IMG/VR virus record: IMGVR_UViG_3300030503_000102
Location: 1-27,047 of that record
Length of the DNA stretch: 27,047 bases
Direction: 5' to 3' (one strand)
Origin: a virus
Shown: piece by piece, positions 688 to 24,400 of the stretch
Numbering within the stretch: the first letter of the stretch is position 1
Layout of the letters: every line of letters starts with the position of its first letter
Notes under the pieces: generated by a model
What the model saw: only the letters and a program-made list of their open reading frames with translations
Databases searched by the model: none
What the model was told of the DNA's origin: nothing
Position numbers and translations under genes: made by a program

Positions 688-1296
688 TCATGCGAATTCA
701 CCTGCCGCGTTTAACTTGTGAAAGTGGCTAACCCAGACCAATCGTCCTGACTCGCTATCCTTGCCAATACCTTCTAGCGGATACCGCGAATGAAACAAAG
801 GCGCTTGAAATATCAGCGCACGGTTCTTTTTACCACGCACCATGTCCGTCTGTATCCATTTGTCCGGATCGCGTGAAACCATATCGCTTTTCAGTTCGTC
901 CAGAATGCCCATCGCTTGCATTTCGGCAAATCCTGGCATCGCGTTTAATCCCGTGCGCTTATGCGTGAAGAACGCAGTCCCTGATTCTTCTTCATGATTG
1001 GTCAGATATGCCACGCACGTATGGTTCCCCGACTCCCGATCACTGTGTATATACGCTCGTTCCATGCCTTCATTGGTGACGCGGAAATACATCGTATTGG
1101 GTACAACCACGCCATTAACTGCCCGCATGATTGAGGCGACCATAAGTGCGTGATCACCCCAAAATCCCATGCCTTCATAGACTGAACTACCTACTTCACC
1201 TTTATTTGGTCGCCACGTATCAAATCCAGCAGCAAACACCGATGACTTGACGCGATCAAGTGCCTTACAGAAGTCATCGACAACGAGATAGCTCAT
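688..1296 (-). CDS. 2OG-Fe(II) oxygenase-like phage protein
   Basis: This 202-residue protein has the arrangement expected of a 2-oxoglutarate/Fe(II)-dependent dioxygenase double-stranded beta-helix. It has an HxD pair (His84-Ser-Asp86), a central TAFF strand near 107-110, and a distal FHSRYP segment giving His169 and Arg171. In this superfamily the two His and one Asp hold iron, and the downstream Arg usually binds 2-oxoglutarate. Such proteins hydroxylate proteins, nucleic acids or small molecules; the substrate here is unknown. The ATG overlaps the stop of the gp10-like gene (ATGA), so it is translationally coupled to the tail genes. Its place between gp10 and an ejection-type gene suggests a virion-associated or late role, which is inference. 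The fold assignment rests on motifs only. Confidence 0.62.
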   Translation of the reverse strand: MSYLVVDDFCKALDRVKSSVFAAGFDTWRPNKGEVGSSVYEGMGFWGDHALMVASIMRAVNGVVVPNTMYFRVTNEGMERAYIHSDRESGNHTCVAYLTNHEEESGTAFFTHKRTGLNAMPGFAEMQAMGILDELKSDMVSRDPDKWIQTDMVRGKKNRALIFQAPLFHSRYPLEGIGKDSESGRLVWVSHFHKLNAAGEFA

Positions 1297-2705
1297 CCTA
1301 CGGTTCCTTGAAGTACTGCTGCACCACCCATCAAATCTCGCCTACGTGGGCTGGAACAACTCACACGATATGTCCGGTTATATGTCGATCCTTGGCGTGT
1401 AAAAACAATGCGCTTTCCATATTCACCGGTTGCGCCAATATCTTCCTGATCCCAGTTGGACCAATTATAGCCACCATCGTCTGAGTATTGGATACGAACA
1501 TAATGATCCACATCATCCGACAACTGGCCAAGCGCCATAATCAGTTCAACCCGTGAAACAATCACGCGATTATGGTTATTAGACAATACACCGTTGGTGC
1601 GCTCAGAGATGAAATTGATATCACCCTCAGTGAATGTATCCCAATCAACAACCCATAATGTGCCATTCTGAAAATCACCGGCAATCCACTGGTTATTCCA
1701 ATACACCATTCCGCTAATACGCCAGCGGTTCATTTCGTAAGAGCCGCGACGATGCCATTCGTCAGCAGAGACGTCATAACCCCATGTCTGACCATCAGGG
1801 AATGTCCAGTAACAGACTTTATGTCCCTTGTCCTCCCACACAAACGCGAAAGCTTGTGACCAGTTAAGACCACTAATGGCCTGCTCAATCGGACGTGTCG
1901 ATTTACGTATCGGGGAATAACCTGAGAGACAGTAGAAAATACCATCATCGCCAAGCCAATAGACGGTGTTGTCCATATTGGCGACGGTATACGTTCCAGC
2001 GCAACCACGCGTCAGAGAAATTCCCTTAGTTCGGATTGGCTGTTCTGCATTGGAGGTGACTTGAAAGAATTCTGTACTACGCGCTGAAAAGATGATCAGT
2101 TCGTTATTGCTGACGGCCATCGACACCATGAGGTCAGGCGCAACTTCCGATGTGAAACGGTCCAGCTCGTTGTAGGTCAATGCGTCATCAGGTGCAGAAT
2201 TGAACGCAAAGCGCCGTGTCGGATCGATCTGCACCAGATAGCTGCCGATATAAACGCAGATGATTGCGCCTGGATAGCCGTCATCCGTGATCTTGGTGAA
2301 GGTGCTTAAGCTGGTATTCCACACATAACCCGACTGGCCATTGACGATCAGTAGTTCATTGCCACCATCCGCTAAAAGGTTATCGGCAAAGTACACGCGA
2401 CCCACGCTAGGAATCGTTCCAAGCTCCGTACAGACGCCTTTGATGCTGATGCTATAGAGCGATTTGGCGACGACGGCGAACAACGTTCCTTCGCAGTTGT
2501 AGACGCCACGCACTGGAGAATCAGGAATCGTCGCACCACTCGTTACCAAGGCGCGCAAACCGGGCGGTGTAACCAATGTCGAAGGCGTGCGTGTTCCCGC
2601 TTTCTCTGCGGATGTGGGAAGCCAGTTAAGCGTGTCCTGCGACGACCATGAAAGGTTGTCGTCTTTGTAGTAGCCACCCACAATGGGGAAGGTGGACTGC
2701 TTCAT
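1293..2705 (-). CDS. P22 gp10-like packaged DNA stabilisation / tail hub protein
   Basis: The product (470 aa) closely matches the size and character of P22 gp10 (472 aa), which plugs the portal vertex after packaging and joins the gp4 ring to the tail needle. It starts with a typical STFPIVGGYYKDDN-type N-terminus and contains repeated beta-propeller-like blades with many Trp, Gly and Asp residues (YWLGDDGIFY, VYWNNQWIAGDF). The chosen start (ATG at 2705) overlaps the stop of the preceding gp4-like gene as ATGA; a start 12 nt upstream is also open but lies inside the upstream gene. The order gp4-gp10 is the P22 order. The oxygenase gene downstream is coupled by a 4-nt overlap. Confidence 0.88.
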   Translation of the reverse strand: MKQSTFPIVGGYYKDDNLSWSSQDTLNWLPTSAEKAGTRTPSTLVTPPGLRALVTSGATIPDSPVRGVYNCEGTLFAVVAKSLYSISIKGVCTELGTIPSVGRVYFADNLLADGGNELLIVNGQSGYVWNTSLSTFTKITDDGYPGAIICVYIGSYLVQIDPTRRFAFNSAPDDALTYNELDRFTSEVAPDLMVSMAVSNNELIIFSARSTEFFQVTSNAEQPIRTKGISLTRGCAGTYTVANMDNTVYWLGDDGIFYCLSGYSPIRKSTRPIEQAISGLNWSQAFAFVWEDKGHKVCYWTFPDGQTWGYDVSADEWHRRGSYEMNRWRISGMVYWNNQWIAGDFQNGTLWVVDWDTFTEGDINFISERTNGVLSNNHNRVIVSRVELIMALGQLSDDVDHYVRIQYSDDGGYNWSNWDQEDIGATGEYGKRIVFTRQGSTYNRTYRVSCSSPRRRDLMGGAAVLQGTVG

Positions 2706-3124
2706 CCTATATACCAATTAGAACCATTGATCGAGTTCAGCGCTTGACGCCTACCACCAGGAATCGGCGCATCCAGAATCGGCTGGATTGGCGTTGCTAC
2801 CATCTGGTCACGCCATAGGTCATTGAGGCTGGCAACGGCTACTTGGGCGACTCCTGGTAATGGTGTGACGCCATATTCAGGCGCAAGCGTCATCGCCAAG
2901 TTATAAGCGACGGCTTGTTCGGCTTCCACCGGAATAGGCATTTCATCATCTGGCGCAGAGACGGGCGACCAACCCAAAGACAGCAGGTCAGCCTCCCATC
3001 GTTGCATCATGGCGTTCAGCGCGTCAATCGCCGTACCCATATCACGAGGCCGCACATCTTGTGAGGGATCGATGACCTGAATAAGGCGAAGTGAACGTCC
3101 GACGATCTTGACGACGGTTGTCAT
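2702..3124 (-). CDS. P22 gp4-like tail accessory factor
   Basis: At 140 aa it is somewhat shorter than P22 gp4 (166 aa), the protein that forms the ring under the portal and the docking site for gp10 and the tailspike. It has the family's helical N-terminal part (AIDALNAMMQRWEADLLSLG) and a mid-section with EAEQAVAYNLAMTLAPEYG, typical of gp4-like head-closure proteins. It lies directly before the gp10-like gene, overlapping it by ATGA, and after a small fiber-like gene, as expected for head completion. No strong Shine-Dalgarno is seen; translation may depend on coupling with the gene that ends 3 nt upstream. Muralytic activity has been described for P22 gp4, but cannot be judged here. Confidence 0.85.
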   Translation of the reverse strand: MTTVVKIVGRSLRLIQVIDPSQDVRPRDMGTAIDALNAMMQRWEADLLSLGWSPVSAPDDEMPIPVEAEQAVAYNLAMTLAPEYGVTPLPGVAQVAVASLNDLWRDQMVATPIQPILDAPIPGGRRQALNSINGSNWYIG

Positions 3125-3127
3125 GGT

Positions 3128-3436
3128 TTAGGCCATGATGCCGGCGGCTTTAAGTTTCGTCAGGATCGCGTTTAGCTCGGTAGCAAGCGTGGCGAAGTTG
3201 GCGTTTAGAATGGGCTGACTGAAACTAGTTCCTACATCGACAATGGCAGTGGCCGGCGTTCCCGGACCTACACTCGTCAACGCTGCTTGGTCAGCCGATT
3301 GCAGAACGACACCAGCAACGGTCGTGGTCGCAGCGGGCGCATTTTCGCCAACGAGAGACACGATATCGTTGATGGAGACGGTAGCCTTACCGCCATTGTT
3401 CTGCGATGCGTAAAGAAGGGTGTTAAGGGTTGTCAT
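3128..3436 (-). CDS. Small head-fiber/decoration-like virion protein
   Basis: This 102-residue protein has a short N-terminal segment (NTLLYASQNNGGKATVSI), a Ser/Thr/Ala/Val-rich middle and a helical C-terminus with repeated Ala, Leu and Asn (FATLATELNAILTKLKAAGIM). The pattern resembles small phage head-fiber or decoration proteins, where a C-terminal helix drives oligomerisation. AGGAG six nt before the ATG supports the start. It lies between the coat region and gp4, where decoration proteins are often found. The function is inferred from composition and position; no catalytic motif is present. Confidence 0.5.
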   Translation of the reverse strand: MTTLNTLLYASQNNGGKATVSINDIVSLVGENAPAATTTVAGVVLQSADQAALTSVGPGTPATAIVDVGTSFSQPILNANFATLATELNAILTKLKAAGIMA

Positions 3437-3445
3437 GATTTGCTC

Positions 3446-3721
3446 CTAAGCCGACTGATTGAATCGGAGGAAAGTGAAAGTAAGATCACTTCCAGATAGA
3501 TCAGAACCGCCATTTTGCTGCATCGTGTTATCGGTAACCACAATCGTTCGAAACGATGGTGTTAAGTTTCCTCCGATAGGAACGCCATCATTAACATTGG
3601 TTTGATCCACGCTAAGCAAAACATCTCCGGCCTTCACGCCCGATAGCGTGAAGGTTGTTTCATCAGAAGAAACACCATTTCCGGTAAGTTGAATTATCTG
3701 AATCGGCGAATAAAGAGTCAT
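3446..3721 (-). CDS. Hypothetical small virion-region protein (beta-rich)
   Basis: The product (91 aa from the ATG at 3721) is rich in Thr, Ser, Val, Asn and Gly and looks like an all-beta domain, for example VKAGDVLLSVDQTN and FRTIVVTDNTM. I do not recognise its family. An ATG 12 nt upstream is also in frame but sits on the tail of the terminator hairpin and lacks a Shine-Dalgarno; GGAA about six nt before the chosen ATG gives modest support. It lies just downstream of an intrinsic terminator, so its expression level probably depends on read-through. A decoration or head-tail connector role is only a guess from position. Confidence 0.55.
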   Translation of the reverse strand: MTLYSPIQIIQLTGNGVSSDETTFTLSGVKAGDVLLSVDQTNVNDGVPIGGNLTPSFRTIVVTDNTMQQNGGSDLSGSDLTFTFLRFNQSA

Positions 3722-3733
3722 ATGAATTTCCAT

Positions 3734-3758
3734 GGAAAGAGAGCCCCGAAGGGCTCTC
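3734..3758 (-). terminator. UUCG-capped hairpin terminator/attenuator after the coat cluster
   Basis: On the minus strand an 8-bp perfect stem (GAGAGCCC / GGGCTCTC) is closed by a TTCG tetraloop and followed by TTTCC. The stem is strong but the U-tract is short, so partial termination is more likely than a full stop. It separates the scaffold/coat genes from the fiber, gp4 and gp10 genes, which would suit high coat and lower tail-protein expression. Confidence 0.7.
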
Positions 3759-3768
3759 AGGATTGGTT

Positions 3769-3957
3769 TTAGCCTTCACTTTGCGTGACGACATTGCCAG
3801 TGGGATTAACCCACAACTGACCAACAACATGCGGATCAGCTCCGGGAAGGTCGCCCATAAAAACCGGGCTAGTTTCCACAGTGCCTACGCCAATAGGCGC
3901 ACTCCACCAATAGCTTTCAGAGCGCTGGGCAACACTAGGGTTAGTTGGATTAGTCAT
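3769..3957 (-). CDS. Hypothetical small protein after coat gene
   Basis: This 62-residue protein contains aromatic and Gly/Pro-rich segments (SESYWWSAPIGVG, GQLWVNPTGNVV). It resembles the small unannotated proteins that commonly follow coat genes in P22-like phages. AAGGAG six nt before the ATG supports the start. It lies 10 nt after the coat gene and just before a hairpin terminator, so it should be made from the same abundant transcript as coat. The function is unknown; a decoration or cement role would fit but is not shown. Confidence 0.6.
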   Translation of the reverse strand: MTNPTNPSVAQRSESYWWSAPIGVGTVETSPVFMGDLPGADPHVVGQLWVNPTGNVVTQSEG

Positions 3958-3967
3958 GATTTACTCC

Positions 3968-5173
3968 TTATGCCGGGGTGAAGTCGGACGGATCGTTAGT
4001 GATACGCGCAGCCCATTCAGGACGAAGCGCACCGAAGGCGTACATGATGTCGAAACGGGTCAGGTTCATGTCATTGACGATGCTGGAACCTTCTGTCACA
4101 CGCATCGAGACACCGTTGTACTGACGTCGCGAGGTTTTCCAGCCAGCCAATTCCGGCAGATCAACCGTCGCAAATGCGAAGGCTTCCGGGCGATACGCCA
4201 AGGACACGCCGTAGGACGAGCTTGCCGTCTGATCGATGGTAATGACCGCATTGTCTGCTGGTAGCGCCGTGACGTTCTGCTCAGAACCCGTGAGGGTCAG
4301 TGCCGGATAGATGCCGATGGAACCCGCGCCTCCAGCATAGTTGGCCGTGACGACGAACTGACGCAGATAGCCAAGATTCGCCTTGGTCTGCGGATGGACG
4401 GCGAACACACCGGCAAAGGTGATGATCGTACCGACCGGAACCGCACCCGTGCCGGTATCTACCACAATGGACGATCCAGCCTGATTTGCACCGTTGACCA
4501 GATAACCCGCGCCAGCACCGTTTGTAAAGACTGGCATCACGGTCGAGCTGTTCCAGTCATAACCGGCGGCACGACCCATCACACCATCTTCGTACTGCGT
4601 ATCAAGCTGCTTCTGCGAGTTGAACAAGCCAGCCAGAGCCGGAACCAGAGTGGTTTCGGACGTGGTGTTCATCAGCATCTTCATGGTAGACGGACCCGCG
4701 CCGTTGTCCATGATGAGCTTTCGACCAATGTTCGCCCATGCAAGCTGCGTCCACTGTGCCGCGCCACCGGGACCGGTCTGGTTTGGAATCGATTGCAACG
4801 CAAGATTCTGCACAGCGGCTTCAACCGTGACAGCCAAGTCCGCGACCTGCTGGCTCAGATAGCGAGCATCGAACTCTTCGATATCCAGCGCCAATTCGGA
4901 ACTGGTGTATTGGACGGAGAAGTTCAACTGATCGATCACCTTCACATTACGGATGATCGTTTCCAGTGGGGCAGGAGCCGCAACGCGGCCTGAGGTAATG
5001 ACGGCATGCTGCGGAACAGCAACACGCAAGGTATCGCCAATCGCTGGCGCACCTTCTTTGAACTCCGACGCATACGTGCGCGGGATAGTCTTGATGAAGG
5101 AGAGATTTTCGCTGAACCGCATCAATGCGCGGTCAGCGATCATGTCAGTGGTGAGTAGCTGGTTACTAGCCAT
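3968..5173 (-). CDS. Major capsid (coat) protein, P22 gp5-like
   Basis: The 401-aa product has the hallmarks of the P22 coat family (P22 gp5 is 430 aa). The N-terminus, TTDMIADRALMRFSENLSF, is followed by a basic and Pro-containing segment (IPRTYASEF) and a GDTLRVAVPQ strand. The HK97-like core has an inserted beta domain rich in Thr and Gly around residues 220-310, and the C-terminus contains MNLTRFDIMYAFGALRPEWAARI. GAGG 7 nt before the ATG supports the start. It directly follows the scaffold gene, as in P22. Coat assembles on scaffold into the procapsid. No odd features were seen. Confidence 0.93.
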   Translation of the reverse strand: MASNQLLTTDMIADRALMRFSENLSFIKTIPRTYASEFKEGAPAIGDTLRVAVPQHAVITSGRVAAPAPLETIIRNVKVIDQLNFSVQYTSSELALDIEEFDARYLSQQVADLAVTVEAAVQNLALQSIPNQTGPGGAAQWTQLAWANIGRKLIMDNGAGPSTMKMLMNTTSETTLVPALAGLFNSQKQLDTQYEDGVMGRAAGYDWNSSTVMPVFTNGAGAGYLVNGANQAGSSIVVDTGTGAVPVGTIITFAGVFAVHPQTKANLGYLRQFVVTANYAGGAGSIGIYPALTLTGSEQNVTALPADNAVITIDQTASSSYGVSLAYRPEAFAFATVDLPELAGWKTSRRQYNGVSMRVTEGSSIVNDMNLTRFDIMYAFGALRPEWAARITNDPSDFTPA

Positions 5174-6448: not shown

Positions 6449-8610
6449 CAGAATCCACCTGTATACGTGTCAGGTGAAGATGGACCAATCGGACCTTCAT
6501 GCGGCACAGCGAAGCCCACTGGCTGCTGTGGCATGAGGGCTGCCCCGTTCTGGATCATCGTGGCGTGACCATCGGCCTCGGTGCCGGGAATCTTGGCGAC
6601 GAGACTGGCGGTCTTGGCTTCTTCCAGCTGCACCTGCGTCTGTGTCTTGGCAGCGATGTCCTGCGCGCGCGCCGTCGCGAGCGTGGCTTGTGCCTGATGA
6701 TGGGCAGCCTGCGCAATGACCTGCGGCGGCGGCGGTGCGGGCGGCGCGGGCGGCGGATCGTTCGGTCCTGGCGGGATAATGCCCTGCTTGACCAGCGCCG
6801 TACGAATCCACTCCACAGCATCGTCAATGCCTGGAACGTCCATCGACTTCATCATCAGGTATTGGCCGATAGCGCCAACAGGTCCCGGCGTCTGCGCCAC
6901 GGTCTGCGCGAACTCCGCCAGTTCCATGCGAGCCGTCTCGTAAGACTTTCCGACCGTTACCGTCACATCGTACTTACCGCGTGAGAGGTCGTTTTCGACG
7001 TATTCCTTACCTGTGACCGGATCAGTGACCATCTTGTTGATCGTGACGTATTTCTCAGCCAGATCAGGCCCCAGAATGCGTATGGAGCGTTCGGCATCAT
7101 AGTAATGCGGGATAGCGTCCACCAGAATCTCACCCAGCCGTTTGAGTGCTTTAACCTGATTGTCCACATAGACGAAGTTGACCACTTCCGCTTGAGCATT
7201 GCGCGCCATGATCGCGCGACCGCTGGTTTCATTTGACTGGCTTCCTACCGACGCGTCATACACACCGGTCGTAGCCTTCATCTCATCGACGGTGATATTG
7301 GACAGGTTCGCGAGGGCTGAAGGTAGCTGCGCCATCGGTTCGCGTGAAGGACCGCCTGGTGCGTTAGGGTCAGCGTTGAACAGCAATACCGGCGGATCGT
7401 CATAGCCTAGTCGTTCGTAATAGCTTTCCAGACCTTTGATCATTGCCGGAGTAGCTTTAAGCGGGCTGTTCGGAAGCTTGGCGACCACCTCCACCATCGA
7501 AGACATTTCAAAGTTGTGAATGGTCTGCGAGTCACGGGCAAAGCGCGTCATTCCTGAGTAAATCTGCTTGCCATCGATACTGATTAGATCACCCCATTGC
7601 GGAACAATCGGGATCATCGAACCACCCCATTTCGTCGGTTCTTCGAGCTTTCCATTGCCTGATACAGGGCACGAATAGATCACGTCCACATCGACTTCGC
7701 GAGTGGATTTGATCGTTACTGGTGGCGTGGCAGCCGGTGGAGGAATAGCTGTAGCGCCAGCTGGTGCCGTGGCTGGATCAACAGGAGGCATAGATTTAGC
7801 TGCATCAGCTTGCGCTTTCTGATAACCCTCATAGTCTTCTTCATCGACAATCGAGCCATCGGAAAGCAATAGGATCGTCTTGGGTTGCTTCTCTGCGTAC
7901 CAGTACTCGGCAATGCGCACCATATCTTCGGTGCACCACAATAGGTCGCTATCACTGTCAGTCCGGGCTACATCGAAGTCCACCACTTCCGCATTAGGCC
8001 AACGTGCTGTGAATGTTGCCTTTGGAATCAGTTCGGAAATGAACCAATATCGCGCGTCGGATCTGTCGAACTTTCGTGCAGATGGATCGCAAAACACGGT
8101 CATTGGATCAAGCACCGCTTCGATCTTCAGACATTGGTCGAACGTATCAGGTGACTCATAGTCCGACTTGACGCGCAGAACGCCATAGCCGCCGCCACAC
8201 GACCACTGGAAGGCAGTGTCATAGGCGTTGTCAGCCGACGAATCGACCTCGATATTTTTGATCATGCCGTTGAGGACTTCTGCCGTGTCAACGTCCTCGT
8301 CATTGGACGCGCGGCATTTAATCTCTGGCTTGTTCTTTAGCTGCTGCCCGGTCACTCGGCGAATCAACTGGCGAACCCGATTGAACTCGTAGTTCGGCTT
8401 GTTGCGGCGCTTGGCCGTGAGATGAGCGTCCCATTGATGCCCAGCCACAAAGGCGAACTTCATGTCTTCGACGCACTGCCGACGTTGTTCGGTGTCGAAC
8501 GTCATAGCATCAGAGGCGCGCTCAAGCATCTCTTTTGTCCACGAATCTTTCTCGACCACTTTCTGCTTGGTTTCACCACCCGTTGAACGGTAGGTCTTGG
8601 ACTTAGCCAT
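6448..8610 (-). CDS. Portal protein, P22 gp1-like
   Basis: The product is 720 aa (P22 portal 725 aa). It has the family's helical N-terminal region (FVAGHQWD, RPNYEFNRV-like NKPNYEFNR), a stem/clip region, and a long Ala/Gln/Pro-rich C-terminal barrel-type tail (from about residue 610). Portal forms the dodecameric ring at one vertex for DNA entry and exit and docks terminase and gp4. The ATG at 8610 has GGAGC six to seven nt upstream and overlaps the end of the large terminase gene by 8 nt. An upstream in-frame start at 8643 would lie deeper in terminase and lacks a Shine-Dalgarno. Confidence 0.92.
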   Translation of the reverse strand: MAKSKTYRSTGGETKQKVVEKDSWTKEMLERASDAMTFDTEQRRQCVEDMKFAFVAGHQWDAHLTAKRRNKPNYEFNRVRQLIRRVTGQQLKNKPEIKCRASNDEDVDTAEVLNGMIKNIEVDSSADNAYDTAFQWSCGGGYGVLRVKSDYESPDTFDQCLKIEAVLDPMTVFCDPSARKFDRSDARYWFISELIPKATFTARWPNAEVVDFDVARTDSDSDLLWCTEDMVRIAEYWYAEKQPKTILLLSDGSIVDEEDYEGYQKAQADAAKSMPPVDPATAPAGATAIPPPAATPPVTIKSTREVDVDVIYSCPVSGNGKLEEPTKWGGSMIPIVPQWGDLISIDGKQIYSGMTRFARDSQTIHNFEMSSMVEVVAKLPNSPLKATPAMIKGLESYYERLGYDDPPVLLFNADPNAPGGPSREPMAQLPSALANLSNITVDEMKATTGVYDASVGSQSNETSGRAIMARNAQAEVVNFVYVDNQVKALKRLGEILVDAIPHYYDAERSIRILGPDLAEKYVTINKMVTDPVTGKEYVENDLSRGKYDVTVTVGKSYETARMELAEFAQTVAQTPGPVGAIGQYLMMKSMDVPGIDDAVEWIRTALVKQGIIPPGPNDPPPAPPAPPPPQVIAQAAHHQAQATLATARAQDIAAKTQTQVQLEEAKTASLVAKIPGTEADGHATMIQNGAALMPQQPVGFAVPHEGPIGPSSPDTYTGGF

Positions 8611-10888
8611 GGAATAGCTCCGAGCGCTGGCCGAAGCCTTCACGGGTGAATTGGGTGGTAAAGGAGATGTTTGGCATAGCGCCGAGGTTTAGCGTGGCGT
8701 AGTCAACGGCAATTAGCCCAGCTGCATCAGCGGAGTGGCTTGACCAATCATGGTGGGGACCTAAGCCGATATTGCGGTTCTCATCGCGCTTTTCGTGATA
8801 CCAGCCCAGCGCTGATCGTCCTGCTTCGGTTTTCTTCTCATCGAACCACATAGAAGGAAAAGCTCTACGCATAGCTTCGATGCGCCTGGAAGCGGCACCT
8901 GCACCCATATTGGGAATGACACGCACATCGAACTGAGCTTCCATCAACGCACTTTGATAGCTCACCTGAAATACCTTGTCGTGCTGTGCTCCATCGTGAG
9001 GAAGAACAAGCTCAGCCTTACCGTAACCGTGATCGCGTAGCCACTGGACATGCACGCTCAAAGGTTGACCAACAGTCTCATAGTGATCCAGCACGCGTAT
9101 CTCTTTGCCAATGAACTGGACGATCCAGATAGCGCATGCGTCAGCTTTGGCACCCGTTCCACCAATGTCCCAATAGGCACGTAGTGTCATTAGAGGGTCG
9201 GCAGATAGATTGCCAATGCGGCCTTGTTCCTTGGCTTCGGCTAAGGCTTTGGCGTAATACGCACCCTCCACGGAGCGTTTATAGCCACCTTCCCATATGT
9301 GATCGTACTGATCTGGCCGCTCCTCAAGGTCGCGCAAGCGCTCACGTTCCAGTTTTGCGGGGAACTTGGGGTTATCGCGCCAATTAAGCTCGACCATCCG
9401 CACGAGAGAGTCAGTCGATAGCCGAAATCGCTTCTCGACGGCGTCAACTTCACGCTCGGGGTTCCATGTCACCCAAAGCTCAGCGTTCCAGTCCGTTCCT
9501 TCCTCACGCAACGTTGGTATCAGCGTAGACCACGCATCGTTCGTGACCGGGCTTGCCTCATCGACCCAGCAAATCAGAATGCGACCCTTTGATTTGATGC
9601 TGGCGATGTTCCGATCTAGACCGGAGAATGCGAACGAGATGCGCCCATCCTTTGACTTGATGTACTTATCGCCTACATCGTAATAGTCAGCTAGCCATTG
9701 TTCGTCTTGAATCGCCCGCTTCACTTCCTCAAGGCTGGAATCCTCAAGGCTATTCATGAACAGGCGAGCGCAGACGATGATGCCGCTAACGCCAGACGAT
9801 CCAAACATCATCCCGCGTACTGCTGCCATCTTGGCGAATGATCGTGTCTTGCCTGAGTTGTGGTTGACGATACCGTTTGACAGGTAGTTCTCAAGCACCG
9901 GCACATGTAAATCCCAATACACAAGGCGGTCGTGCTTGCAAATGCTTTGTATGCCAATCAAACTATGGCGGTCGTGAACACAACTGGGAGAAAACCATGA
10001 ACTATCGTGAACGCCGAGCCGAGGCATGCCGGGAATTGTTCGCTTCTTTCCATCCTGACTTTTCAGGTTGTCGTGATAAAGACCGAGCGAATGAAATTCT
10101 TGAGATGGCTCGCGAAGGAATGTTTTCTGCTGATATAGCGCAACGTCTCGGCATAACTCCAAAGGCTGTGCAGAAGCTTTACCGTCGCTATAACTTCCCT
10201 CAGCTACAGAACTTTTCGCCGCCGCTGCGAGAAGAACGCGTTGGCTGGACAGGTGGCGTGAAGGAAGTTCGCGGGTATCTGTATTCTCGTTCGCCAGGTC
10301 ATCCGCGTGCGTCCAAGTATGGGAACTATGTTGCGGTTCACCGACTTGTGATGGAGAAGAAACTAGGACGATATCTGAAAGGATCGGAGGTTGTTGATCA
10401 TATCGACGGGAATACGAGAAATAACCACCCGGATAACCTTCGTGTTTTTCCGAATAATGCGGAGCATCTTCGCGTGACGCTGAAAGGCCGTGTTCCGAAT
10501 TGGTCGCCGGAAGGCAAAGCTCGGATGGGGACGCCACGTAAACCGAATCAGCCATCGTCAAATCTTGAAGCTCAACCCAGCCTCGATTCGTCAGAAAGCG
10601 ATGCTCGTCCGTTACAGACATTGACCGACCATCCAGAAGAGTCACCAAGTAAAGCTGTTGCTCGTCATATGGAATGGATGGAGTAGCTGGAGCTATAACG
10701 ACTCGACCATCCAGCACCGAGTAAACGCTGCCTCCTTTGAACTCGCTTATCTTCACTTGACCTGAAGGCGTGTCGATAAGCGTATCGGGGTGGCAGCAGC
10801 CGCGCCCACCAAAAGCCCCACGGACGTCTGCTGCTCCCAAAAAGATAGGCCGTAGCTTTGGAGGAAGCTGGACAGTGACTTCGGTCAA
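8603..10888 (-). CDS. Large terminase subunit (TerL) interrupted by an intein
   Basis: The precursor is 761 aa; removing the 314-aa intein leaves 447 aa, close to P22-type TerL (499 aa). TerL is the ATPase/nuclease motor that cuts and packages DNA into the portal. The extein P-loop is rejoined as GGRG+SGKT across the insertion. Walker B is LICWVDE (about 438-444 of the precursor), the coupling motif is WVTWNP (472-477), and nuclease acidic residues are Asp574 (YWDIG), Asp632 (LPHDG) and Asp721 (HSADA). The start is TTG, overlapping the small terminase stop as TTGA; no Met codon precedes the P-loop, so the TTG is needed. The insertion disables the P-loop until splicing, so packaging depends on it. 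Confidence 0.93.
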   Translation of the reverse strand: MTEVTVQLPPKLRPIFLGAADVRGAFGGRGCCHPDTLIDTPSGQVKISEFKGGSVYSVLDGRVVIAPATPSIPYDEQQLYLVTLLDGRSMSVTDEHRFLTNRGWVELQDLTMADSVYVASPSELCLPATNSEHGLSASREDAPHYSEKHEGYPGGYFSYSRRYDQQPPILSDIVLVSSPSQVGEPQHSSHTWTHADDLANENTDTRELPSRHLSSQRVLLAAAAKSSVAEGSYSDGKASAQPLELCRDVALYQQKTFLREPSQEFHSLGLYHDNLKSQDGKKRTIPGMPRLGVHDSSWFSPSCVHDRHSLIGIQSICKHDRLVYWDLHVPVLENYLSNGIVNHNSGKTRSFAKMAAVRGMMFGSSGVSGIIVCARLFMNSLEDSSLEEVKRAIQDEQWLADYYDVGDKYIKSKDGRISFAFSGLDRNIASIKSKGRILICWVDEASPVTNDAWSTLIPTLREEGTDWNAELWVTWNPEREVDAVEKRFRLSTDSLVRMVELNWRDNPKFPAKLERERLRDLEERPDQYDHIWEGGYKRSVEGAYYAKALAEAKEQGRIGNLSADPLMTLRAYWDIGGTGAKADACAIWIVQFIGKEIRVLDHYETVGQPLSVHVQWLRDHGYGKAELVLPHDGAQHDKVFQVSYQSALMEAQFDVRVIPNMGAGAASRRIEAMRRAFPSMWFDEKKTEAGRSALGWYHEKRDENRNIGLGPHHDWSSHSADAAGLIAVDYATLNLGAMPNISFTTQFTREGFGQRSELFHG
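9857..10798 (-). mobile_element. Class-1 intein in the TerL Walker A motif, with antisense endonuclease gene
   Basis: The 314-aa intein spans precursor residues 31-344. Block A begins Cys1-Cys-His-Pro-Asp-Thr-Leu-Ile. Block B has Thr-Asp-Glu-His (intein residues 63-66). Block F is VYWDLHV, and block G ends NGIVNHN followed by Ser+1 of the extein, so every standard splicing residue is present. The Hint parts total about 125 aa (precursor 31-121 and about 315-344), a normal mini-intein size. The intervening 190 residues are Ser/His/Pro-rich with no LAGLIDADG or HNH motif in this frame. On the opposite strand the same DNA encodes an HNH endonuclease. The insertion is at a highly conserved catalytic site, typical for inteins. 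Confidence 0.93.
9997..10686 (+). CDS. HNH homing endonuclease encoded antisense inside the intein
   Basis: The 229-aa protein has a helix-turn-helix-like segment (residues 41-64, SADIAQRLGITPKAVQKL) and an HNH_3-type nuclease core: AVHRLVMEKKLG with His115, VDHIDGNTRNN with Asp134, His135 and Asn139-Asn143, then HPDNLRVF with Asn147. HNH enzymes of this type nick or cut a recognition site, promoting copying of the element that carries them. GGGAG six nt before ATG 9997 decides the start, although the frame is open back to 9877. The gene runs against terL. Its core (to about residue 176) lies opposite the intein linker, and its last 52 residues lie opposite the intein Hint block A-B region, suggesting that the tail is read-through of intein antisense DNA. 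First codon bases of the two genes face each other. No clear promoter was found. Confidence 0.88.
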   Translation: MNYRERRAEACRELFASFHPDFSGCRDKDRANEILEMAREGMFSADIAQRLGITPKAVQKLYRRYNFPQLQNFSPPLREERVGWTGGVKEVRGYLYSRSPGHPRASKYGNYVAVHRLVMEKKLGRYLKGSEVVDHIDGNTRNNHPDNLRVFPNNAEHLRVTLKGRVPNWSPEGKARMGTPRKPNQPSSNLEAQPSLDSSESDARPLQTLTDHPEESPSKAVARHMEWME

Positions 10889-11136
10889 GGCTTGTCCATG
10901 TCAACGAGCTTGATGGAGTGAACTATCTGGAAGGGATTATCTGGGTCTGTAGACATTTCAACGCTCGATAGGTCGGGAACTGATTTCCTTAACAAAATTT
11001 CAGCTGACTTAAGCTGTGTTGCGGTAAGATCACGCTTACCCTCGAAATGGTCATGCAGCCCACGGATTAACATACTCGCCTGTATCTTGGCGCGTATCTC
11101 ATCACTGTGTTTTGGGCGTAGTGTCCGTGCAGCCAT
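10885..11136 (-). CDS. Putative small terminase subunit
   Basis: This 83-aa basic/helical protein (RPKHSDEIRAKIQASMLIRG, then LTATQLKSAEILLRKSVPDL) lies immediately upstream of TerL and overlaps it by TTGA. Small proteins with this LTxxQ...ILLRKxxPDL pattern sit at the terS position in many podovirus-like phages. It is shorter than P22 TerS (162 aa) and has no recognisable full DNA-binding domain, so the assignment relies on position plus the helical pattern. There is no strong Shine-Dalgarno before the ATG. A role as DNA-recognition partner of the motor is inferred. Confidence 0.55.
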   Translation of the reverse strand: MAARTLRPKHSDEIRAKIQASMLIRGLHDHFEGKRDLTATQLKSAEILLRKSVPDLSSVEMSTDPDNPFQIVHSIKLVDMDKP

Positions 11137-11210
11137 TCGTATAAGTCTCGCGTCTCTTAGTCGTTAATATAGTTGCTAACCAGTTCATTAATTAGGCAAA
11201 TAAAAAGGTC

Positions 11211-11375
11211 TTACAAGCCCTTGGTATCGATGTCGATTGGTTCAATATCAGGTTTTACATCTTCCATTTCCATGAGGATTTTCAATACATCGTTGTCAAT
11301 GATTTCCGCCAGTGAATTCACTACCTTATCCAGGGCTTTGGTTAATTCGATTTCGTATTCTTCCAAAATTTTCAT
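11211..11375 (-). CDS. Small acidic hypothetical protein (54 aa)
   Basis: The frame reads MKILEEYEIELTKALDKVV and continues as an acidic, helical 54-residue protein ending in DIDTKGL. AGGTG about 9 nt before the ATG supports translation, and it starts 9 nt after the upstream gene stops. The charge pattern suggests a coiled coil or helical adaptor. No family is recognised. It may be under-called because of its size, but spacing and Shine-Dalgarno fit the dense operon. The 75 nt between this gene and the small terminase are A/T-rich, with a possible -10-like TATATT but no convincing promoter. Confidence 0.55.
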   Translation of the reverse strand: MKILEEYEIELTKALDKVVNSLAEIIDNDVLKILMEMEDVKPDIEPIDIDTKGL

Positions 11376-11383
11376 ATCAGCAC

Positions 11384-11584
11384 TCACCTTACTCCCGCAT
11401 AGTACATCGCCCGGCCCATAACGACAGAATGACGCCGTAGCGCCATGGTAATGCAGTAGGTGAGGTAGGTTTGGCTGGAAACGGTGCTTTTCTTCGATGG
11501 CCTACGAACTAGCTTGCCATCAACAATGTCCATGTCTTCGTATCCCGTGAGGTAGCCAATTTTCTTGGTCGTCATGTCAGTCAT
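11384..11584 (-). CDS. Hypothetical protein, translationally coupled (66 aa)
   Basis: The product begins MTDMTTKKIGYLTGYEDMDIV and has a basic C-terminal half (ALRRHSVVMGRAMYYAG). The ATG overlaps the stop of the upstream gene (ATGA), which decides the start over longer in-frame options. The family is not recognised. It belongs to a run of six very short genes between the late structural genes and the tRNA block, a position where phages keep head-maturation and host-interaction proteins. No function can be assigned. Confidence 0.5.
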   Translation of the reverse strand: MTDMTTKKIGYLTGYEDMDIVDGKLVRRPSKKSTVSSQTYLTYCITMALRRHSVVMGRAMYYAGVR

Positions 11585-23665: not shown

Positions 23666-23701
23666 CCCACCCCACCGCCCAGCGGAAATTTGGTGATTGA
23701 T

Positions 23702-24400
23702 ATGAGTAATTTAGCGACAGTTGAGAATGATGATCACGGCACCGTTTCTCCCATGTTCGCCATGATTGAGCGCGCTGCGCGTGATCCTGCCGTCGATATC
23801 GACAAGCTCGAACGGTTGATGCTGATGAAGGTCAATGCGGACGCGTTACAGGCTCGCGGAGCTTATGACGATGCTATGGCCGAACTTCAGCCTGAGTTGC
23901 CTGTCATCGCCGAGAGAGGCCAAGCTGACCGTTATTCCTTTGCCAAGTGGGAAGATATCAACGTGGCTATCAAGCCGGTACTTATGCGACATGGTTTCGC
24001 TCTGACATTCCGCACCGACTTTGCCGATGGAATAGCTATTACTGGCGTTCTTTCGCATCGTGCTGGACACCGTGAAGAAACAACGATAAAACTCCCAGCC
24101 GATGCTAGCGGAAATAAAAACCCTGTACAGGCTGTCGCATCAAGTGTCAGCTACGGGAAGCGATATGCGGCCAGCGCGTTGCTCAACCTGACCAGCCATG
24201 GTGAGGATGATGATGCTTACACCGCAACGGTGGAAAGGGTCACAGAGGATCAGGAAATCCAGATCAACGATATGCTGGAAGCAACCAATTCCGACAAAGC
24301 CAAGTTCCTTGAATGGCTGAAGATTGACGGCGTATCGAAGATCCCAGCGAAACGCTTCGATGAGGTGATGAAACTACTTAAGGCGAAGGTTAAAAAGTGA
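23702..24400 (+). CDS. Erf-type single-strand annealing protein
   Basis: The 232-aa protein carries the ERF family core: AYDDAMAELQPELPVIAERG, RYSFAKWEDINVAIKPVLMR, a beta segment with ITGVLSHRAGHREE, and NPVQAVASSVSYGKRYAASA followed by an acidic HGEDDDA. Erf proteins (P22) form rings that anneal complementary single strands, helping genome circularisation and recombination. GGTG six nt before ATG 23702 supports the start. It overlaps the exonuclease gene by GTGA, and the two should work as an exonuclease-annealase pair. Confidence 0.9.
   Translation: MSNLATVENDDHGTVSPMFAMIERAARDPAVDIDKLERLMLMKVNADALQARGAYDDAMAELQPELPVIAERGQADRYSFAKWEDINVAIKPVLMRHGFALTFRTDFADGIAITGVLSHRAGHREETTIKLPADASGNKNPVQAVASSVSYGKRYAASALLNLTSHGEDDDAYTATVERVTEDQEIQINDMLEATNSDKAKFLEWLKIDGVSKIPAKRFDEVMKLLKAKVKK

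Follow-up and report, generated by a model that had tools for sequence, protein, structure and literature searches.

A phage terminase intein with a putative homing endonuclease gene on its antisense strand

Described systems and the present locus

Inteins are commonly taught as bifunctional, with the nuclease and splicing domains in one polypeptide. Another layout was reportedly described by Dassa et al. 2009, namely fractured genes with split inteins in which an endonuclease gene is said to lie between the halves. There, as in the locus analyzed here, the endonuclease would be a separate open reading frame (ORF) of the intein locus; however, the host gene is in two parts, whereas the present intein is continuous and the nuclease gene is nested in it in antisense orientation.

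The mycobacteriophage inteins TerL1-a and TerL1-b, located in the P-loop of the terminase large subunit (TerL), carry active endonucleases (PMC5050341). Like the intein described here, they are Walker A inteins of terminase large subunits with horizontal spread and endonucleases of the same role (PMC5050341), but their endonuclease is encoded by the intein itself, whereas no endonuclease occurs in the intein frame described here, an HNH gene being found on the complementary strand. Nuclear group I introns carry antisense homing endonuclease genes (PMC9548176). These, too, are self-splicing elements that carry the nuclease gene on the complementary strand, but, being RNA introns, they need no open host frame, whereas in the present case both strands must stay open for about 690 bp. 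The ShiLan domain, a phage methylase insertion lacking splicing domains, contains an HNH gene on the same strand but out of frame (PMC11855218). It shares with the present locus a mobile HNH gene hidden in an open host frame without a detectable intron, and its HNH is a distant relative of the HNH family analyzed here (about 36% over 95 aa). A ShiLan-type insertion was nevertheless rejected because our locus has the splicing domains of a full intein and its HNH is antisense. The best PDB fold match of the modeled HNH protein was I-HmuI (PDB 1u3e; probability 0.96, but E only 0.039), which is encoded on the sense strand of a group I intron, whereas the HNH protein described here combines HNH_3 with an N-terminal helix-turn-helix (HTH) within an intein. 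The first-pass annotation of this DNA knew of no described intein with an antisense nuclease, and our search of the full-text literature, largely outside subscription journals, found no intein with a nuclease gene on the opposite strand.

The terminase intein and its antisense HNH gene

The window (the whole stretch of DNA analyzed, 27,047 bases) is IMG/VR virus record IMGVR_UViG_3300030503_000102. The terL frame (Table 1) matched Terminase_3 (Pfam, E 2.4e-16) and phrog_3717, terminase large subunit (E 8.5e-51). The intein frame within it contained 0 stops in 314 codons, started with C-C-H-P-D-T, and ended with I-V-N-H-N, followed by Ser. The insertion site was inside the Walker A motif (GGRG^CCHPDT...GIVNHN^SGKT; carets mark the junctions), and excision of the intein would give GGRG^SGKT, the same motif as in the intein-less alleles L088-L093. 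All the hallmarks of an intein were present: blocks A, B, F, and G, C1, the block B His (H66, invariant in intein alignments of 30 and 32 rows), the terminal His-Asn, and a +1 residue of the Ser/Thr/Cys set. The Pfam model Intein_splicing (PF14890) matched with 37.7 bits (cut-off 35.8; E 2.3e-9). When AlphaFold2 was fed an alignment of related inteins, the Hint halves were modeled with a pLDDT of about 95, and residues 95-273 were nearly all below 50, with low-pLDDT segments running from 95-107 to 270-273. The top Foldseek match of this model was the Ssp DnaB mini-intein (E 1.8e-7), in agreement with a Hint fold.

Table 1 Features of the terL locus in the window (positions of the window; strand relative to the sequence as given)
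Feature	Position	Strand	Remarks
TerL precursor frame, including intein	8603..10888	-	Open frame, 761 aa
N-extein, ending in first Walker A half (GGRG)	10799..10888	-	90 bp identical to intein-less allele L089
C-extein, opening with SGKT (second Walker A half)	8603..9856	-	
Intein, 314 codons, C1 to N314, +1 Ser	9857..10798	-	Motifs, Pfam, fold
Intein block A (CCHPDT)	10781..10798	-	
Intein block B (SVTDEH, T-x-x-H)	10601..10618	-	Antisense overlap by C-terminal tail of HNH
Intein block F (YWDLHV)	9902..9919	-	
Intein block G (GIVNHN)	9857..9874	-	Then +1 Ser at 9854-9856
Intein linker, approximately residues 91-275, predicted disordered	9974..10528	-	Antisense to HTH and catalytic domain of HNH
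Putative HNH endonuclease gene, 229 aa, wholly within intein	9997..10686	+	ATG 9997 to stop 10686
Shine-Dalgarno-like GGGAG, 6 bases 5′ of HNH ATG	9986..9990	+	AGGAG in relatives L006, L007
HTH DNA-binding domain, HNH residues 27-66	10075..10194	+	HTH_23 E 9.6e-5, below Pfam cut-off
HNH_3 catalytic domain, HNH residues 113-154	10333..10458	+	PF13392 E 1.6e-12

Profile searches, including Pfam, recognized no endonuclease in the intein's own frame. A conventional bifunctional intein was rejected, there being no nuclease match between blocks B and F of this frame and a linker predicted to be disordered. A group I or group II intron was also rejected, since a search of 9500-11100 against Rfam gave no intron hit up to E = 1. 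Because, in addition, the host frame is open through the insert, the locus does not correspond to an intron with an antisense homing endonuclease gene.

Residues H115, H135, N143, N147, and H157 of the HNH protein were invariant columns in alignments of 26 and 28 rows, which gives the conserved His and Asn of the catalytic motif of HNH homing endonucleases. In the structural model, the HTH helices had a pLDDT of about 90 and the nuclease core was confident, whereas the C-terminal tail was of low confidence. The HNH frame spans intein codons 38-267 and crosses block B with its C-terminal tail only. It had 0 antisense stops in the intein phase, versus a mean of 7.75 in synonymous shuffles (HNH read from a longer TTG-initiated ORF). 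A scan for a sigma-70-like promoter for the HNH gene gave nothing above chance. A Shine-Dalgarno-like site preceded HNH in only about 60 of the 97 family loci described below, as a raw count.

The interpretation offered in the first-pass annotation was supported by these data. The intein was found at the proposed position with all its splicing motifs and with no endonuclease of its own, and the plus strand carried the predicted HTH and HNH_3 protein, although with a weak HTH match, behind its own GGGAG site; both strands were open, and this exceeded chance in the synonymous shuffles. The claim that HNH lies between Hint blocks B and F held for the HTH and the catalytic domain, which are opposite the linker, but not for the tail, which overlaps block B.

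Recurrence and constraint on both strands

An HNH protein search of viral contigs returned 80 loci (numbered with the prefix L), about half of them with a long open opposite frame flanked by intein motifs. Later scans used our own profiles of the intein halves and of HNH. Among 165 HNH-carrying loci, for which an open frame was not required, 128 had HNH antisense within a single open intein frame, all in phase 1; in none of the 165 was HNH in the sense strand or the flanked intein frame broken. A scan with the intein N-domain, blind to HNH, gave 39 loci: 38 with antisense HNH and one mini-intein (L262). Altogether, 171 loci represented 99 distinct inteins, 97 of them with antisense HNH. In each of the 97, the intein enclosed the entire HNH gene, and neither its antisense orientation nor its phase ever varied. 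The first-pass annotation had proposed a search for related inteins with the same antisense HNH, and these 97 distinct loci are its outcome.

The 97 HNH-bearing inteins came mostly from uncultured viral contigs, together with nine isolated phages (seven Pectobacterium phages of the Ymer group, Dickeya phage Setonix, and Pseudoalteromonas phage PHS3). A single bacterial genome assembly also contributed a contig (Opitutae, L168). An assembly artefact was rejected because the genomes of the nine isolates are complete and the contigs numerous and distinct. Nearly all family inteins were located in Walker A: by pattern, 65 of the 99 were inserted before Ser/Thr-Gly-Lys, 28 between Lys and Thr/Ser, and 6 elsewhere. 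Host proteins were mostly Terminase_3 and Terminase_6, with single members matching TraG/TraD, DnaG, and MCM models. PF14890 matched 31 of the 38 intein frames of the first set. Inteins with an antisense nuclease gene are thus a real class of mobile elements, widespread and not an oddity of a single sequence. They represent another solution to combining the two functions: in about a hundred distinct phage inteins, one strand of a DNA segment encodes splicing and the other the nuclease. With nine isolated phages among its carriers, the class can be tested directly.

Annotation of such loci errs either way. In PHS3 (L163, KX912252.1), the full TerL plus intein frame is open at 1209-3332 (708 aa); in its GenBank annotation, the HNH gene was called and the terminase truncated. 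The Pectobacterium phages, conversely, have the large frame annotated as one hypothetical protein and lack an HNH call. The paper on the Ymer group mentions neither inteins nor HNH (PMC11445585).

The intein phase opposite the 97 HNH genes had 0 stops in 19,587 codons, versus 659 expected from synonymous shuffles, and the other two antisense phases had 717 and 1009. In free-standing HNH relatives (n = 29), 296 stops were observed in the intein phase versus 316 expected. Because these relatives were near expectation, the open intein frame cannot be put down to the HNH sequence or to its codon use; a chance open frame was rejected by the shuffles and the free-standing controls. The zero-stop count depends in part on the requirement that one ORF contain both intein halves, and we therefore also rely on the 165-locus and HNH-blind scans, which were free of that requirement and showed no broken frame. 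Antisense openness could, in principle, simply follow from base composition or from the coding of HNH, with the linker not truly maintained: long antisense ORFs arise by chance in GC-rich genes, and two free-standing GC-rich HNH genes (L023 and L030) were also without phase 1 stops. We consider this extremely improbable given the deficit of stops across 97 distinct loci (many at GC 0.39-0.50), the near-expected counts in the free-standing controls, and the abundance of stops in the other antisense phases. Moreover, L023 and L030 are placed close to the intein clade and could themselves be escapees.

Substitutions were counted in 13 pairs of closely related elements, not all of them independent. 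In this phase, HNH codon position 3 coincides with intein codon position 2. Substitutions at intein codon positions 1, 2, and 3 numbered 32, 17, and 119 in Hint-N alone; 20, 13, and 51 in the part of Hint-N overlapped by the HNH tail; 120, 410, and 85 in the linker/HNH core; and 31, 16, and 102 in Hint-C. Core-overlap substitutions were thus concentrated at the third codon position of HNH. A sum over nine pairs showed the same pattern along the element. This switch indicates conservation of HNH in the middle of the element, with the linker simply remaining open, and of the splicing domain at the ends, including the part under the HNH tail. Between the window and L006, 33 of the 229 HNH residues differed, compared with 83 of 228 residues read from the same DNA in the antisense intein frame. 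Among the window, L006, and L007, substitutions by HNH codon position were 17, 19, and 77; this conservation of the HNH frame excludes a dead HNH frame in the lineage of the window. Conservation of HNH in relatives, on which the first-pass annotation had made its interpretation depend, was thereby confirmed, both by the third-position bias and by the 97 distinct loci. The functional status of antisense proteins in prokaryotes is disputed, and this class offers a long and clean case of antisense gene overlap in which a switch of selection can be read along the sequence.

In our judgment, these elements probably form an old, widespread, and hitherto unrecognized intein class, restricted almost entirely to the P-loops of terminases and other ATPases, with HNH antisense in one invariant phase. 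The two genes would share their DNA permanently, with selection acting on the nuclease frame in the central part and on the splicing frame toward both ends, the other strand being merely stop-free. Such an arrangement would uncouple the expression of the nuclease of an intein from that of the host gene.

Mobility, origin, and rival readings

The intein DNA of L009 and L187 was identical at 931 of 975 positions (95.5%), whereas their TerL proteins were only 70% identical; divergence started at both junctions. On a shorter scale, the inteins of L177 and L178 were identical at 943 of 945 positions within more diverged exteins. Exteins and Hint domains were 40% and 82% identical, respectively, between L182 and L183, and 31% and 71% identical between L008 and L185. 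Hint distances were correlated with HNH distances (Mantel r = 0.63; the largest of 999 permutations was 0.13), which indicates that both were inherited together. Judged from these sequence comparisons, the intein and HNH were shown to move as one unit between diverged terL genes.

Intein-less terL alleles, which the first-pass annotation had suggested looking for, do exist and were up to 94% identical in TerL (L088-L092). For Ymer, Escherichia phage KW1E_UTAR (MZ506873) has an intein-less terL that is about 71% identical. Next to an identical N-extein (Table 1), the first 150 bases past the empty site contained 17 silent differences and one that was not silent. When the window was compared with L089, positions 10900-11400 were strongly diverged between terL and the match at 11384, with flanking blocks 92-98% identical, a mosaic exchange just upstream of terL. 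This mosaic divergence fits co-conversion but also ordinary phage recombination; a clean co-conversion tract at the empty site is only suggested and is not claimed, the wider flanks being mosaic. No family HNH was found near intein-less terL in 73 loci, on the DNA fetched.

HNH was observed to decay in inteins that remained open: it was truncated in L044 and L269 and had a broken frame in L062. In L262, HNH was gone and a mini-intein with a 48-bp linker remained. Such decay and loss with the intein open match the expected life cycle of a homing endonuclease gene. A further decayed copy was seen in L176 (around 3501-4181), with two in-frame stops in the HNH match and a whole intein.

The features expected of homing, namely a mobile element, a conserved site, empty alleles, and horizontal spread, were all found, and we consider it very likely that the window carries a mobile intein with a homing endonuclease gene on its own antisense strand. 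We infer splicing, HNH expression, and cleavage as follows. On the minus strand, translation of TerL would continue across the entire insert; the Hint halves (roughly residues 1-90 and 276-314) would fold around a disordered linker of approximately 185 residues and splice out, rebuilding Walker A, as the conserved motifs and structure suggest. On the plus strand, an independent HTH and HNH_3 protein would be made from its own start. By analogy with I-HmuI, it may recognize and nick or cut the P-loop coding sites of intein-less terL, and repair from the intein-bearing copy would then insert the intein and the nuclease gene together, as with HNH homing enzymes. The window encodes an Erf-like single-strand annealing protein (23690-24400), and, speculatively, this phage protein could take part.

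The visible decay of some copies would also be compatible with a normally splicing intein in which HNH is an inactive passenger (a dead or misdirected homing endonuclease gene) and mobility depends on general phage recombination, and both the recombinogenic, mosaic region and the Erf-like protein lend this some weight. We regard it as unlikely, given the intact catalytic residues and the purifying selection on the HNH frame in the window, L006, and L007. Somewhat less likely still is a packaging accessory kept near terL by its antisense placement rather than a homing enzyme. HNH proteins beside terminase genes assist terminases in some cos phages, and most hosts of the family are terminase genes; however, the nuclease-intein unit also occurred in hosts matching TraG/TraD, DnaG, and MCM and was common to diverged terL genes, the 73 intein-less terL loci had no family HNH nearby, and HNH was truncated or lost while the intein and TerL stayed open.

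A quick tree grouped 63 of the 67 intein HNHs together with the free-standing L023 and L030 and left four (L049, L052, L056, and L062) outside this main clade. Forcing all intein HNHs into one clade gave a better likelihood, and a single origin was not rejected (p-AU 0.73). The simplest reading is that the antisense arrangement arose once and that its phase was fixed through descent; several independent origins are not claimed, given the better one-clade likelihood. The free-standing HNH genes near the intein clade (L023, 3974-4519; L030, 3932-4477), each with 0 phase 1 stops, are possible intein escapees.

Other overlapping HNH arrangements were also observed. L058 contained an unrelated intein (1358-2236, plus strand; PF14890 E 5.8e-13) at the TerL nuclease motif (DWSSHG^C...VSN^SDAF), with an HNH_3 ORF (1600-2166, plus strand; E 8.7e-15) on the same strand as the intein in a different frame. 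In L070 (2586-4381) and L078 (2910-4300), and possibly in L045, L047, and L071, a free-standing HNH gene was inserted in antisense orientation close to where a phage gene begins (an SU10-type adaptor in L070). In L070 and L078, the upstream copy of the gene start ran antisense through HNH with 0 stops in phase 0 (GC 0.29 in L070), and the gene restarted downstream with a second, similar N-terminus that overlapped the end of the first ORF, an arrangement that resembles the logic of the yeast WHO elements (PMC7282813).
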